From Lacihabitans soyangensis (GTDB lineage Bacteria; Bacteroidota; Bacteroidia; Cytophagales; Spirosomataceae), in NCBI RefSeq assembly GCF_024343775.1, contig NZ_RJUF01000176.1, positions 1 through 64,000 on the forward strand: a stretch of DNA of 64,000 nucleotides, written 5' to 3'. Positions 38,033-41,737 of the stretch are shown here, piece by piece; the stretch's first letter is position 1, and each line of letters starts with the position of its first letter. The translations under genes and the position numbers were made by a program. Under the pieces are notes generated by a model that saw only the letters and a program-made list of their open reading frames with translations, ran no database searches and had not been told where the DNA came from.

Positions 38033-38833
38033 TTGATAAGACCCTTGGCAAAAAGAACAAAAAAAGCCAAATACACACTTAAGCCACGAATAAAACGTGG
38101 ACTCAAATTGTTGCTCCTTCTGACGAGCCCAATTCTGCTTTACATTTGTTATTACGCCTACAAGGAATTCAAAGCCGGGCTTATAAAGTATAAAGCATTT
38201 GGCGTTTATATTCCAAACCAATACGAAATTCACGGCATAGATGTATCCCACTATCAGCAGATTATCAATTGGAAGTCTGTAAAAGCCATGAATATAGAAG
38301 GTGTCAACATCGACTTTGCTTTTCTCAAAGCCACTCAAGGCACACAAACCATTGATTTACAATATTTCCAAAACAAACTAAGAGCAAGAAAAGCCGATGT
38401 ACCTGTAGGTGCCTATCACTTTTTTGTGGCCAGCAAAGATCCTGTCCAGCAAGCCAACCTTTTCAGCAAAGTGGTTCAAATCAAGAAAGGCGATTTACCA
38501 CCTGTGGTGGATATCGAAAAAGAGTATCATCAGTCGAGTGAAAAAATTAGAAAAAGTCTAAAAACTTGGCTTAGGTTGGTAGAAAGAAAATACGAGGTAA
38601 AACCCATTATCTACACCAACGTAGATTTTTACAAAAATCATTTGGAGGGTTATTTTGAAAGCTACCCAGTCTGGATTGCTCATTACACCAAACTTAGAGA
38701 ACCCAATATCGAAAAAGATTGGACATTTTGGCAATTAAGCGAAGAAGCTACAGTAAACGGTATAAATGGCAAAGTAGACTTCAACGTCTTTAATGGCACC
38801 AGAGAAGAATTTGAAGAACTCAAAATCAAATAG
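38033..38833 (+). CDS. Glycoside hydrolase family 25 lysozyme
   Basis: 266 residues. A basic N-terminus and one membrane segment (LKLLLLLTSPILLYICYYAY, about 24-43) anchor a GH25 domain. The catalytic Asp/Glu pair is in LPPVVDIEKEY (about 160-166) and the entry motif is HGIDVSHYQQIINW (about 66-79); YPVWIAHY and FWQLSEEATVNGINGKVDFN complete the barrel. It cleaves the MurNAc-GlcNAc bond. No ATG exists upstream of the membrane segment, so a TTG start (38033, or 38045) is needed. Its 3' end overlaps the convergent EamA gene by 8 nt. Confidence 0.88.
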   Translation: MIRPLAKRTKKAKYTLKPRIKRGLKLLLLLTSPILLYICYYAYKEFKAGLIKYKAFGVYIPNQYEIHGIDVSHYQQIINWKSVKAMNIEGVNIDFAFLKATQGTQTIDLQYFQNKLRARKADVPVGAYHFFVASKDPVQQANLFSKVVQIKKGDLPPVVDIEKEYHQSSEKIRKSLKTWLRLVERKYEVKPIIYTNVDFYKNHLEGYFESYPVWIAHYTKLREPNIEKDWTFWQLSEEATVNGINGKVDFNVFNGTREEFEELKIK

Positions 38834-39692
38834 TTGACTGTGGTTTTCTTTTTAACAAGATGGGATGAAGAAACACAGACAACAAAACCAAAACCCCACC
38901 CAAATAAAATTGAGTAGACATTCGTTCCCTATCTCCAAAAATAAAATAAGCCAACACTACGCCATAAACGGGTTCCAGATTTAGGCTCAGATTTACTGTG
39001 AAAACTGAAATCTTCTGCATGATTTTTATCATTTGAGCATGCGGAATAACAGTACATACTAACGCCAGAACCAATAACCAAATCCAATCTGTTTGGCTCA
39101 TTACTAAATCTTGTTTTTCGAAAAATATCAAATAAAACACCCAACAAACCACGAAAGCTGCCGTTAACTCATAAAAACTAATCAGCTGACTATCAAACCT
39201 ATACGTAAGTTTTGAGTTGAAGATCGTAAACGCAGCACATAACAAAGCTCCTAAAAGACCGATGAGAATTCCAGCCAAGTATTGGGCCTCAAAACTAAAC
39301 ATGATGGCTACACCTACCACTGCCAACAAACCCAGCATTATTTCTTTGAAATCTAATTTCTTATTGCCCAAAACCGGCTCCAATAAACTCGTAAAAAATG
39401 AAGTGGTGGAAAAAGTAACCAAACTTATGGCTACCGTGGATATTTTAGCTGAACCAAAAAAACACAACCAATGTAAACCCAAAAGAAATCCTACAAAAAA
39501 TATCAGCCCCAAGTCTCTCAGACCTATCTTTAAATTAACTTTTCTAAAATACAAAATTAGAAACAAGGCTACAGCCGCCACCAAAGTTCTATAGAAAACT
39601 ACCGCTAAAGTACTGGCTTCTATGAGTTTACCTAGAATTCCTGTAAAACTCAATAACAAAACCAAAATATGTAATTTTAGATAATCCCTCAT
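38826..39692 (-). CDS. EamA/DMT-family transporter
   Basis: 288 residues, ten membrane helices in two EamA repeats: the first starts LLLSFTGILGKLIEASTLAVVFYRTL, and the second ends LEPVYGVVLAYFIFGDRERMSTQFYLGGVLVLL. The family exports amino acids or other small metabolites. It follows the arginine-type GNAT gene with a terminator-like hairpin ending only 8 nt before its start, so the two may be partly cotranscribed. The substrate is unknown. Confidence 0.9.
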   Translation of the reverse strand: MRDYLKLHILVLLLSFTGILGKLIEASTLAVVFYRTLVAAVALFLILYFRKVNLKIGLRDLGLIFFVGFLLGLHWLCFFGSAKISTVAISLVTFSTTSFFTSLLEPVLGNKKLDFKEIMLGLLAVVGVAIMFSFEAQYLAGILIGLLGALLCAAFTIFNSKLTYRFDSQLISFYELTAAFVVCWVFYLIFFEKQDLVMSQTDWIWLLVLALVCTVIPHAQMIKIMQKISVFTVNLSLNLEPVYGVVLAYFIFGDRERMSTQFYLGGVLVLLSVFLHPILLKRKPQSTI

Positions 39693-39754: not shown

Positions 39755-40495
39755 TTACTGCTCTATGAGTTCCGTTGGTTTCACTCGACTGGGCTGAGCT
39801 TTTTTTTTACTTTTTTCCTCTCTTCTTAACAATATCCTTTGTTTCAAACTCATCCATTTTTCATAAAGGCTTGATTCTTTTATGAAATCCCAAAACTCAG
39901 GTTTTTTACCTTCAGTAATGACAGTTCTTACCTCGTCAGCATCATATTTCATTCCTGTACAAAGGCAATGAGCTCTGTTTGTACGGTTCAGAATATCAAA
40001 ATTCACACAGCTCGAACAACCCTTCCAAAACTCGTCATCCTTTGGCAATTCAGAGAAAGGAACAGGCAAATAACCCAACTCTGAGTTGATCTTCATTACG
40101 GCCAAACTGGTAGTAAGTCCAATGATTTTGGCATCAGGATATTTTGTTCTCGAAAGATTAAATGCCTTAGCTTTTATGGAGGTCGCAATCCCACTCTTAC
40201 GGTGGTTAGGATGGACAATTAAGCCTGAGTTGGCCACGAACTTTCCGTGTTCCCAGGTCTCTACATAGCAGAAACCCACCCATTCACCATCTAAAGTAGT
40301 GGCTATAACGGCTTTGTCTTCCATCATTTTCAGGCGGAGATACTCTGGCGAACGTTTGGCTATACCCGTACCACGGGCTTTTGCACTAAGCTCCATCTCT
40401 GAACATATTTGTTCTGCGTAATTCAAGTGATTTTCGTCGGCTACTTGAACTATGTAATTGCCAATAATACTTTTTTCTATTGTACTCATCGTCAT
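39755..40495 (-). CDS. GNAT acyltransferase of the arginine-biosynthesis type
   Basis: 246 residues (244 from the second Met). A GNAT domain (about 15-160) has the acyl-CoA loop in VHPNHRKSGIATSIK (about 93-107) and the strand ATTLDGEWVGFCYVETW. It is followed by a Cys cluster (CSSC, then CLC, about 160-180) and a basic tail. From memory, proteins with this GNAT plus FWKGCSSCVN layout precede argG in Bacteroides and relatives and are thought to acylate glutamate as the first arginine step. No arg genes follow here, but the leader upstream carries an arginine-rich small ORF. The exact acyl donor (acetyl or succinyl) is not known. Confidence 0.8.
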   Translation of the reverse strand: MTMSTIEKSIIGNYIVQVADENHLNYAEQICSEMELSAKARGTGIAKRSPEYLRLKMMEDKAVIATTLDGEWVGFCYVETWEHGKFVANSGLIVHPNHRKSGIATSIKAKAFNLSRTKYPDAKIIGLTTSLAVMKINSELGYLPVPFSELPKDDEFWKGCSSCVNFDILNRTNRAHCLCTGMKYDADEVRTVITEGKKPEFWDFIKESSLYEKWMSLKQRILLRREEKSKKKAQPSRVKPTELIEQ

Positions 40496-40509
40496 TTGAG
40501 AGGGCCTTT

Positions 40510-40672
40510 ACCCTTAATGGAGACGGTGTATCCGCGATTGTTAAAGATGAAAAAAATTGAGATAAAGAACAAAGGCGATTCGCTTATGAGCAAAATACCT
40601 CATGCTTGGGTCCTTGCGGACCGCATTCGTCGGAAGGGTGATATTGGAAGATTAATCTTTACCATTCTTTGT
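40510..40672 (-). promoter_or_regulatory. Structured leader RNA, candidate arginine attenuator
   Basis: The transcript should start near 40677. Visible pairings on the minus strand are GGTCC-GCAA-GGACC (40609-40622, GNRA loop), ATGAG/CTCAT (40586-40603), GCG-AAT-CGC (40575-40583), a closing pair AACAAAG (40666-40672) with CTTTGTT (40568-40574), a seven-T run (about 40550) and AGGG/CCCT just before the GNAT start. ACCCTT (40634-40639) could instead pair with AAGGGT (40510-40515). I match it to no known riboswitch. Confidence 0.6.
40600..40665 (-). CDS. Arginine-rich leader peptide (candidate)
   Basis: A 21-codon ORF reading M-V-K-I-N-L-P-I-S-P-F-R-R-M-R-S-A-R-T-Q-A and stop. Four of the seven codons 12-18 are arginine (CGA, CGA, CGG, AGG), and they run into the GNRA-capped hairpin at 40609-40622. 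It starts about 12 nt after the expected transcript start and ends 105 nt before the GNAT gene. Leader peptides of amino-acid operons have this form: a slow ribosome at the control codons changes the folding of the RNA. Whether it is translated is not shown. Confidence 0.6.
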   Translation of the reverse strand: MVKINLPISPFRRMRSARTQA

Positions 40673-40683
40673 TTAAGTCGATG

Positions 40684-40712
40684 CAAATATAGAATGAATT
40701 CCAATCTTACAA
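40684..40712 (-). promoter_or_regulatory. Promoter of the GNAT leader transcript
   Basis: On the minus strand, TTG (40710-40712), 18 nt, TATATTTG (40684-40691). Both boxes and spacing fit the Bacteroidota consensus. It places the start of transcription about 180 nt before the GNAT gene. Confidence 0.7.
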
Positions 40713-40781: not shown

Positions 40782-41708
40782 TTAACGCCTATTGTCATCG
40801 TTCTCAAACATGCTCAAATAGCTCATATAACGACTTTCTGATATTTCTCCAGCCTCCACAGCATCTTTGACTGCACACTTGGGTTCGTTGATATGCAGGC
40901 AGTTATGAAATTTACACTGACCCAACAAATCTCTAAATTCAGGAAAATAATGAGCGAGTTCTTCATTTTCAATATCCACTAAACCCAGTTCTTTTATACC
41001 CGGCGAATCTATGATGAAAGTTTTATTGGGCAACTGGAACATTTCCGCAAAAGTGGTAGTATGCACCCCTTTACTCGAAAAATCTGAAATTTCAGAAGTT
41101 GCCAAATCCAAATCTGGATCTAAAATATTGATAAGCGTGGATTTACCTACGCCAGAATGCCCCGAAATCAATGAAATTTTATTGGCCAATTTGGCAAGTA
41201 ATTCATCAATACCTTTTTTGGTCAAAGTAGAAGTAGACACACAGTCATAGCCCAAATGCGTGTATAAGTCCATCAAAGCATCCTGGAAAATGACACCCTT
41301 TTTATTCAAAAGATCGAATTTATTGAAAACAATCAAAACAGGAATTCTGAAAGTTTCGGCCGTCACTAAAAATCTATCAATGAAACCCAGCGAAGTTTTG
41401 GGACTAGCCAAAGTAACAATCAGTACCAATTGATCAATATTAGAGGCTAAAAGATGTCCATGAGCAGTTTTGTGTACAGACTTCCGGATGATGTAGTTCT
41501 TACGCGGAAGAATTTCCTTTATCATTCCGATGTTTTCGTCCTCCAAATCAAAAACCACCTTGTCTCCAACCGAAAGTGGATTGGTAACTTTCAAATCTTT
41601 GATTTTGAACTTGCCTTTCAAGCGACACGAAAAAAGCGTATTTTGCTCATCTCTGACCTCATACCAGCTACCTGTTGACCTAAATACAGTACCTATTTTG
41701 TTTTCCAA
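40782..41708 (-). CDS. rsgA: Ribosome small-subunit-dependent GTPase A
   Basis: 308 residues. It checks late 30S assembly. An N-terminal OB fold (IGTVFRSTGSWYEVRD) precedes a circularly permuted GTPase with G4 NKFD (about 130), then G1 GHSGVGKST (about 183) and G3 DSPG (about 234). A C-terminal zinc knuckle follows (CKFHNCLHINEPKC). There is no ATG near the start. A frame from TTG at 41732 is possible, but a TAGTTTTG -7 element at 41730-41737 would overlap it, so the TTG at 41708 is preferred and also fits family length. Confidence 0.93.
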   Translation of the reverse strand: MENKIGTVFRSTGSWYEVRDEQNTLFSCRLKGKFKIKDLKVTNPLSVGDKVVFDLEDENIGMIKEILPRKNYIIRKSVHKTAHGHLLASNIDQLVLIVTLASPKTSLGFIDRFLVTAETFRIPVLIVFNKFDLLNKKGVIFQDALMDLYTHLGYDCVSTSTLTKKGIDELLAKLANKISLISGHSGVGKSTLINILDPDLDLATSEISDFSSKGVHTTTFAEMFQLPNKTFIIDSPGIKELGLVDIENEELAHYFPEFRDLLGQCKFHNCLHINEPKCAVKDAVEAGEISESRYMSYLSMFENDDNRR

Positions 41709-41729
41709 ATGTTTGGGTTTAAATACAAA

Positions 41730-41737
41730 CAAAACTA
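41730..41737 (-). promoter_or_regulatory. -7 element TAGTTTTG for rsgA
   Basis: Exact TAnnTTTG match on the minus strand. It argues for the TTG start at 41708 over 41732. Confidence 0.45.

Follow-up and report, generated by a model that had tools for sequence, protein, structure and literature searches.

A putative arginine-responsive leader before an early arginine-synthesis gene in Lacihabitans soyangensis and its relatives

In Salmonella and its relatives, the speF mRNA carries near its start a short open reading frame, ORF34 (SpeFL), with arginine codons at positions 12 and 13. When a ribosome waits at these codons, a hairpin downstream of the stop codon can form; Rho works on a CU-rich region, and the beginning of speF is sequestered (PMC6386406). 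For Bacteroidota, the sources consulted include a general statement about leader-peptide clues before amino-acid operons in Flavobacterium psychrophilum (PMC9723704) and a mention of leader-like small ORFs in Bacteroides thetaiotaomicron (PMC7366714). We found no description of an arginine leader in this phylum in the open-access literature available to us.

Here we analyze a minus-strand leader in a 64,000-nt window of Lacihabitans soyangensis (contig NZ_RJUF01000176.1, positions 1 to 64,000), located between rsgA (40782-41732) and a GNAT gene (Table 1). Comparison of sequences makes it likely that this is a ribosome-mediated, arginine-responsive leader of an early arginine-synthesis gene. 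As such it is a candidate regulator of that gene across an order and beyond.

Table 1. Features of the GNAT leader and their positions in the window
Feature	Position	Strand	Basis or remark
Promoter: TTG (40712-40710), 18 nt spacer, TATATTTG (40691-40684)	40684..40712	-	sequence
Leader ORF, 21 codons and TGA, MVKINLPISPFRRMRSARTQA	40600..40665	-	sequence and comparison
P1 hairpin, GGUCC-GCAA-GGACC	40609..40622	-	overlaps Arg15, Arg18 and the ORF end
P2 hairpin (core 40594-40579), outer stem in the window's clade	40574..40601	-	sequence and comparison
Pyrimidine-rich stretch after P2, possible Rho loading region	40534..40573	-	sequence; composition in relatives; role putative
H-type pseudoknot, directly before the GNAT ATG	40490..40533	-	pattern in relatives, alignment, tree
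Pseudoknot stem 1, GGA with UCC	40533-40531 with 40521-40519	-	sequence and comparison
Pseudoknot stem 2, CGUC with GACG	40525-40522 with 40493-40490	-	sequence and comparison
P4 hairpin (AGGG..CCCU), inside the long pseudoknot loop	40501..40515	-	variable sequence, unscored
GNAT, probable N-acyl (succinyl) glutamate synthase, ATG at 40489	39755..40489	-	homologue, gene-order and start-codon comparison; regulated gene

The leader and the gene it precedes

A sequence-only reading of this DNA had proposed an arginine attenuator here. The promoter, the 21-codon ORF and the GGTCC-GCAA-GGACC hairpin it named are all present. Transcription would start near 40678. TAnnTTTG is the −7 consensus in F. 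psychrophilum (PMC9723704), and TATATTTG or TATCTTTG is present by eye in the window's clade. The arginine codons of the leader are CGA at 12 and 13, CGG at 15 and AGG at 18. They are uncommon, as had been remarked: among 535 arginine codons in window ORFs of at least 200 aa, CGA makes up 10.7%, CGG 3.0% and AGG 12.0% (jointly 25.7%) and AGA 48.8%, and the leader uses the first three alone. A second small ORF, MRYFAHKRIAFVLYLNFFHL (40603-40541, minus strand), overlaps the leader stop through ATGA, and similar ORFs occur in several close relatives.

The GNAT start, earlier placed at 40495, is better set two codons later at 40489; the upstream ATG is kept in only 30 of 58 loci, these 58 having been selected by a pattern ending in GACR-ATG. 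GNAT homologues were found in 194 of 200 genomes of the family; for the order the count is 310 of 390 and for the class 133 of 395, with E-value limits that differ between these searches. The proposed tie to arginine synthesis is borne out by gene order. argG is the next gene after GNAT in 50 of 85 loci, 31 of 65 inside the family and 19 of 20 outside it, where the contig of the twentieth ends early. Among the loci listed, argC, an argD-like gene and often more lie behind argG, and in other clades a similar leader precedes such GNAT-argG operons. Genetic data give BT3761 a role in arginine synthesis, and it is probably an N-succinylglutamate synthase (GapMind, PMC7311316). By class and gene order, our GNAT probably corresponds to the N-succinylglutamate synthase that this paper discusses for Bacteroidota and would be the counterpart of BT3761. 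The leader thus precedes a gene in the synthesis of the amino acid that its codons specify, as in attenuators (argG after GNAT in the loci above; PMC7311316).

In the L. soyangensis genome, argG lies on a separate contig from GNAT, and its upstream region has no clustered-Arg leader. Directly downstream of GNAT on the same strand is an EamA-type transporter gene (38826-39692), which may be co-transcribed with GNAT and under the same control. ORFs that look alike by eye follow GNAT in L002, L006, L007 and L008.

Arginine codons and hairpins in relatives

We fetched 188 regions upstream of GNAT homologues and excluded 12 that could not be oriented. A leader was called when the best upstream ORF of 12–60 codons had at least three arginines in its last 16 residues. 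The conserved short ORF with clustered arginines that had been predicted is found by this rule in 159 of the 176 loci, where the opposite strand yields 64 of 176 and mononucleotide shuffles 19%; near-identical loci enter the count separately, and related genomes are non-independent, a kinship that shuffles leave in place. The rule fails in 17 loci and misses some visible leaders, such as L058 and L044.

Family leaders follow the consensus HTTPFRFRSERT or ISPFRRMRSARTQ. When the leaders are anchored on the P2 loop, codon 0, inside P1, is AGG in 66 of 66 unique family rows. Codon −2, outside P1, is arginine in 52 (CGG 23, CGA 23, AGG 6) and another residue in 14, and codon +3 is arginine in 57 (AGG 43, CGG 14). 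Anchoring on P1 yields 75 unique leaders from 98 loci, includes the window's clade and misses 16 of 114 loci; arginine is then found at −2 in 64 of 75 and at +3 in 65. The corresponding 73 of 75 at codon 0 is partly imposed, because this anchor permits only A, C or T before GG there and names CGA or AGG in two other forms. The P2-loop anchor repeats the codon count free of the P1 anchor.

Within the family, arginine is kept through synonymous codons, mostly CGA, CGG and AGG. These three account for 90% of arginine codons in family leaders versus 36% in genes of the same loci; the bias is weaker outside the family, at 67% in the order and 56% in the class. Leaders from other families retain the arginines (LRRFRNSFRA, IRRRRRFIFRV, ILPFRNPRP), as do those from other orders (FRPRRPRR, VRRMRPPFGV, RRPFSRRPARV). 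Clustered control codons for the pathway end product, which characterize attenuator leaders, are therefore found here, and this codon-level conservation suggests that the ORF is translated. In three loci (L059, L127, L118) the leader ORF lacks the usual stop, reads through P2 and ends in FCLPMW or NCLPMR, with its stop inside the 3′ arm of P2; their P1 region can also form UUUCGG..CCGAAA.

The residues HTTPF before the arginine codons are conserved as well (H 50, T 56, T 51, P 51 and F 47 of 75, at −7 to −3), which is more than plain control codons need. Nascent-peptide arrest has precedents in the ornithine-sensing SpeFL and the fungal arginine attenuator peptide. Under such a mechanism HTTPFRFRSERT and its variants would stall the ribosome at high levels of arginine or of a related metabolite and so turn the gene off. 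The non-arginine residues are indeed conserved in the family at the amino-acid level through many synonymous changes, but HTTPF is absent from the leaders of other families while arginine stays, the distance to the stop codon is not fixed, and family arginine codons are biased to CGA, CGG and AGG. We therefore regard peptide arrest as improbable, though the strongest of the alternatives to control codons.

P1 in relatives overlaps the last arginine codons and mostly also the stop codon or its neighborhood. In some (L027, L031, L038) its sequence is replaced by GAUAU/AUAUC, and the arginine codon at the edge of this type is CGA. P2, an element additional to the earlier reading, sits in the window's clade where relatives have the CC-UAYGY-GG hairpin, but it lacks that loop. 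The two hairpins are separated by 12 nt on average (8–20, 114 loci), and P2 lies 49 to 165 nt from GNAT. A single copy of the nonamer CCTAYGYGG is present in 97 of 176 loci.

Covarying stems had been expected in relatives, and both P1 and P2 covary across 91 unique sequences selected for the P2 loop, a selection under which this loop and the inner two pairs are fixed. Pairing reaches 96% in P2 and 86–88% in P1; in one group the P1 finder picked UUUCGG..CCGAAA, so gaps there are overstated. Over both stems, 92.3% of cells are paired versus 79.2% in shuffles, and two-sided cells number 102 versus 27.8; 0 of 500 shuffles reach either value. The stems also exceed 500 of 500 shuffles on further pair types and on the covariation score, and they exceed every slid version. 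The number of pairs with two-sided change is reached by 9 of 500 shuffles. The stems thus carry natural compensating changes. In scans of 101 family genomes, the P1-P2 pattern occurs in 38, once per genome and always at GNAT; reversed controls for the pseudoknot pattern and for this one gave 0 and 1 matches.

Two other ideas about P2 were discarded. By standard pairing rules its loop does not mimic a tRNA-Arg(ACG) anticodon, as the middle letter is C or U. Its nonamer is not a general amino-acid-leader motif, since 0 of 14 hisG upstream regions carry it. One hisG region (L208) has GCUUC-UACGU-GGAGC, with a UACGU loop like that of P2. Small ORFs with at least three histidines precede hisG in 7 of the 14 genomes (L204, L205, L206, L208, L211, L212, L215), and those in L204 and L205 have a hairpin with TTTTTT at their end.

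ArgR is an arginine regulator. Its profile (PF01316), positive in 9 of 14 control genomes, found no match in L. soyangensis and was absent from 52 of 55 genomes tested. Control of arginine synthesis in most of these genomes would thus operate without ArgR, with the leader as candidate regulator. Of the 55, 45 satisfy the leader rule, 7 show two arginines and 3 fewer than two. The three genomes with ArgR have an ArgR ORF that ends 51–103 nt before the GNAT match, and P2 was not found at their GNAT; two of them (G614, G753) pass the leader rule through chance ORFs. This swap of ArgR for the leader may be one event in a shared ancestor. Two further GNAT loci, L087 (G244) and L189 (G530), have neither an Arg-rich leader by rule nor ArgR, and their GNAT would be under some other control or none.

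From P2 to the GNAT start

Attenuators commonly have an intrinsic terminator, a hairpin followed by a U-run, before the gene. Among 107 loci no regular U-run follows P2, which we therefore reject as a regular intrinsic terminator; none was seen by eye elsewhere in the leader. Six T follow P2 in only three of the 107 (L033, L058, L066). Positions 0–4 after P2 are 40–58% T and 31–43% C, and the ~20 nt after P2 are C/T-rich and G-poor (2–19% G per position).

The sequence-only reading had also proposed a long-range switch in which ACCCTT (40639-40634) in the leader ORF pairs with AAGGGT (40515-40510) near the GNAT start. Both segments are present in the window, but only 4 of 17 clade loci, the window included, have both, and we reject this switch as not conserved. 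The attenuator proposal as a whole fares better in relatives: its short ORF, arginine cluster and covarying stems pass the comparative tests, as does the tie to arginine genes, while this pairing fails. No conserved alternative partner for P1 was found. A pairing of its 3′ arm with the pseudoknot GUCUCC (4 bp by eye) was dropped because relatives with a different P1 retain the same pseudoknot.

The pseudoknot itself was likewise no part of the earlier reading. GGA-N-YGUC-UCC, with GACR just before the ATG, is found at 58 of the 159 loci from the order. Stem 2 takes the forms CGUC:GACG (42), UGUC:GACA (14), UGUC:GACG (2) and CGUC:GACA (0), so that its single variable pair fits in all 58. The pattern fixes GUC and GAC, and variation is therefore possible at this one pair only. 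The type of this pair switches three times on the GNAT tree. In an alignment with 46 unique rows, pairing in stem 2 is 100%, with one pair varying and the other three never. Stem 1 changes from GGA/UCC to GGG/CCC in 2 of the 46, and each of its two outer pairs is open in some rows (16 and 21).

The pseudoknot is absent in 49 of 85 loci. Its presence is associated with a separation of GNAT and argG (31/5/4/45, Fisher p 9e-14), but 3–4 supported independent pairs on the GNAT tree give no association. We therefore reject a link between the two; the association is probably due to shared descent.

Could the pseudoknot be the sensor, binding a small molecule or a protein at the GNAT start, while the leader ORF plays a lesser part? 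Its anatomy would suit this role: it is a compact H-type fold that abuts the start codon, its variable stem-2 pair always fits, and genome-wide its pattern occurs in 38 of 101 family genomes, once each, 36 times at GNAT and twice elsewhere. Against this stands its limited distribution, in barely more than a third of the order loci, while the leader ORF is found far more widely. We consider a sensor role for the pseudoknot quite unlikely.

Proposed mechanism and relation to described systems

That the ORF arises by chance, its arginine codons following from a conserved GGUCC/GGACC structure, is very unlikely: two of the four arginine codons in the window leader do lie within P1, but arginine is also kept at −2 outside it, with synonymous variation, and NGG at +3 has A or C as its first letter in 57 of 61 cases.

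We folded leaders with the region under a ribosome masked, which is a rough model. Ten leaders were run and eight were usable; L116 (P2 mis-set) and L018 (no P2) were excluded. For five family leaders (L012, L022, L031, L032, L127), the free RNA forms P1 at 0.95–1.0 and P2 at 0.28–0.99. Placing the first conserved arginine codon in the A site removes P1 and gives P2 at 0.61–0.99; with the ribosome at the stop codon, neither forms. Three leaders from outside the family behave differently. In L096, P1 survives a stalled ribosome and P2 is present with the ribosome at the stop; in L091, P2 appears only with the ribosome at the stop and is missing in the stalled state; L086 is indifferent to ribosome position. 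No shared alternative helix was found in the masked folds of the ten.

In the control-codon mechanism that we favor, the transcript would begin near the position given above and a ribosome would translate the 21-codon leader. With ample charged tRNA-Arg it would pass CGA, CGA, CGG and AGG to the stop, covering P1 and the 5′ arm of P2. With scarce Arg-tRNA it would wait at codons 12 to 15, where P1 is blocked and P2 allowed. GNAT would be on when arginine is short, a direction that we infer from pathway logic. The state of the leader would set GNAT output most likely by two routes: Rho access to the pyrimidine tract downstream of P2 and, in the clade of the window, the pseudoknot, which would communicate with the leader and bury the four nucleotides that precede the GNAT start codon. 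Output would thus be Rho-like or through a pseudoknot, in place of a textbook terminator.

A broader scenario is possible but doubtful. A class-wide arginine leader would replace ArgR in Bacteroidia without an intrinsic terminator; a dedicated factor, be it Rho, RNA polymerase or an RNA-binding protein, would recognize P2, whose pentaloop CC-UAYGY-GG recurs across orders on a covarying stem; and the window's clade would add a translational pseudoknot switch on the start codon.

The sequence-only reading had matched the leader to no described arginine element, and database searches agree. Rfam scans of the window region and 11 relatives gave only unrelated matches below gathering scores. Seven leader peptides had no Pfam match to DUF2618, the family of SpeFL, at E ≤ 1, with one unrelated match at E 0.27, and no relevant NCBIfam match. 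Bacteroid-trp (RF01692) and GUCCY-hairpin are Bacteroidota motifs, named for trp and for a GUCCY hairpin; the latter has no Rfam number in the table of PMC2864571, and the likeness considered here is one of phylum and name. ArgR differs in kind, being a protein, and in three genomes its gene holds the leader's place. We regard the leader as a probable variant of ribosome-mediated attenuation that has no match to a described family in Rfam, Pfam or NCBIfam.

Like trp- and his-type attenuators, it is rich in codons for the end product and precedes an early gene of the pathway; unlike them, it lacks a regular U-run after P2, and no shared terminator/antiterminator pair was found in the masked folds. 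It also resembles speF ORF34 (PMC6386406) in its short ORF near the mRNA start with arginine codons at 12 and 13, a hairpin after the stop, a CU-rich region and structure over the gene start, and by analogy the predicted folding of the family resembles speF. Compared with speF as described there, the GNAT leader precedes arginine synthesis rather than ornithine decarboxylase, is far shorter and belongs to another phylum; the loop of P2 is conserved among relatives, and the pseudoknot at the start codon covaries.
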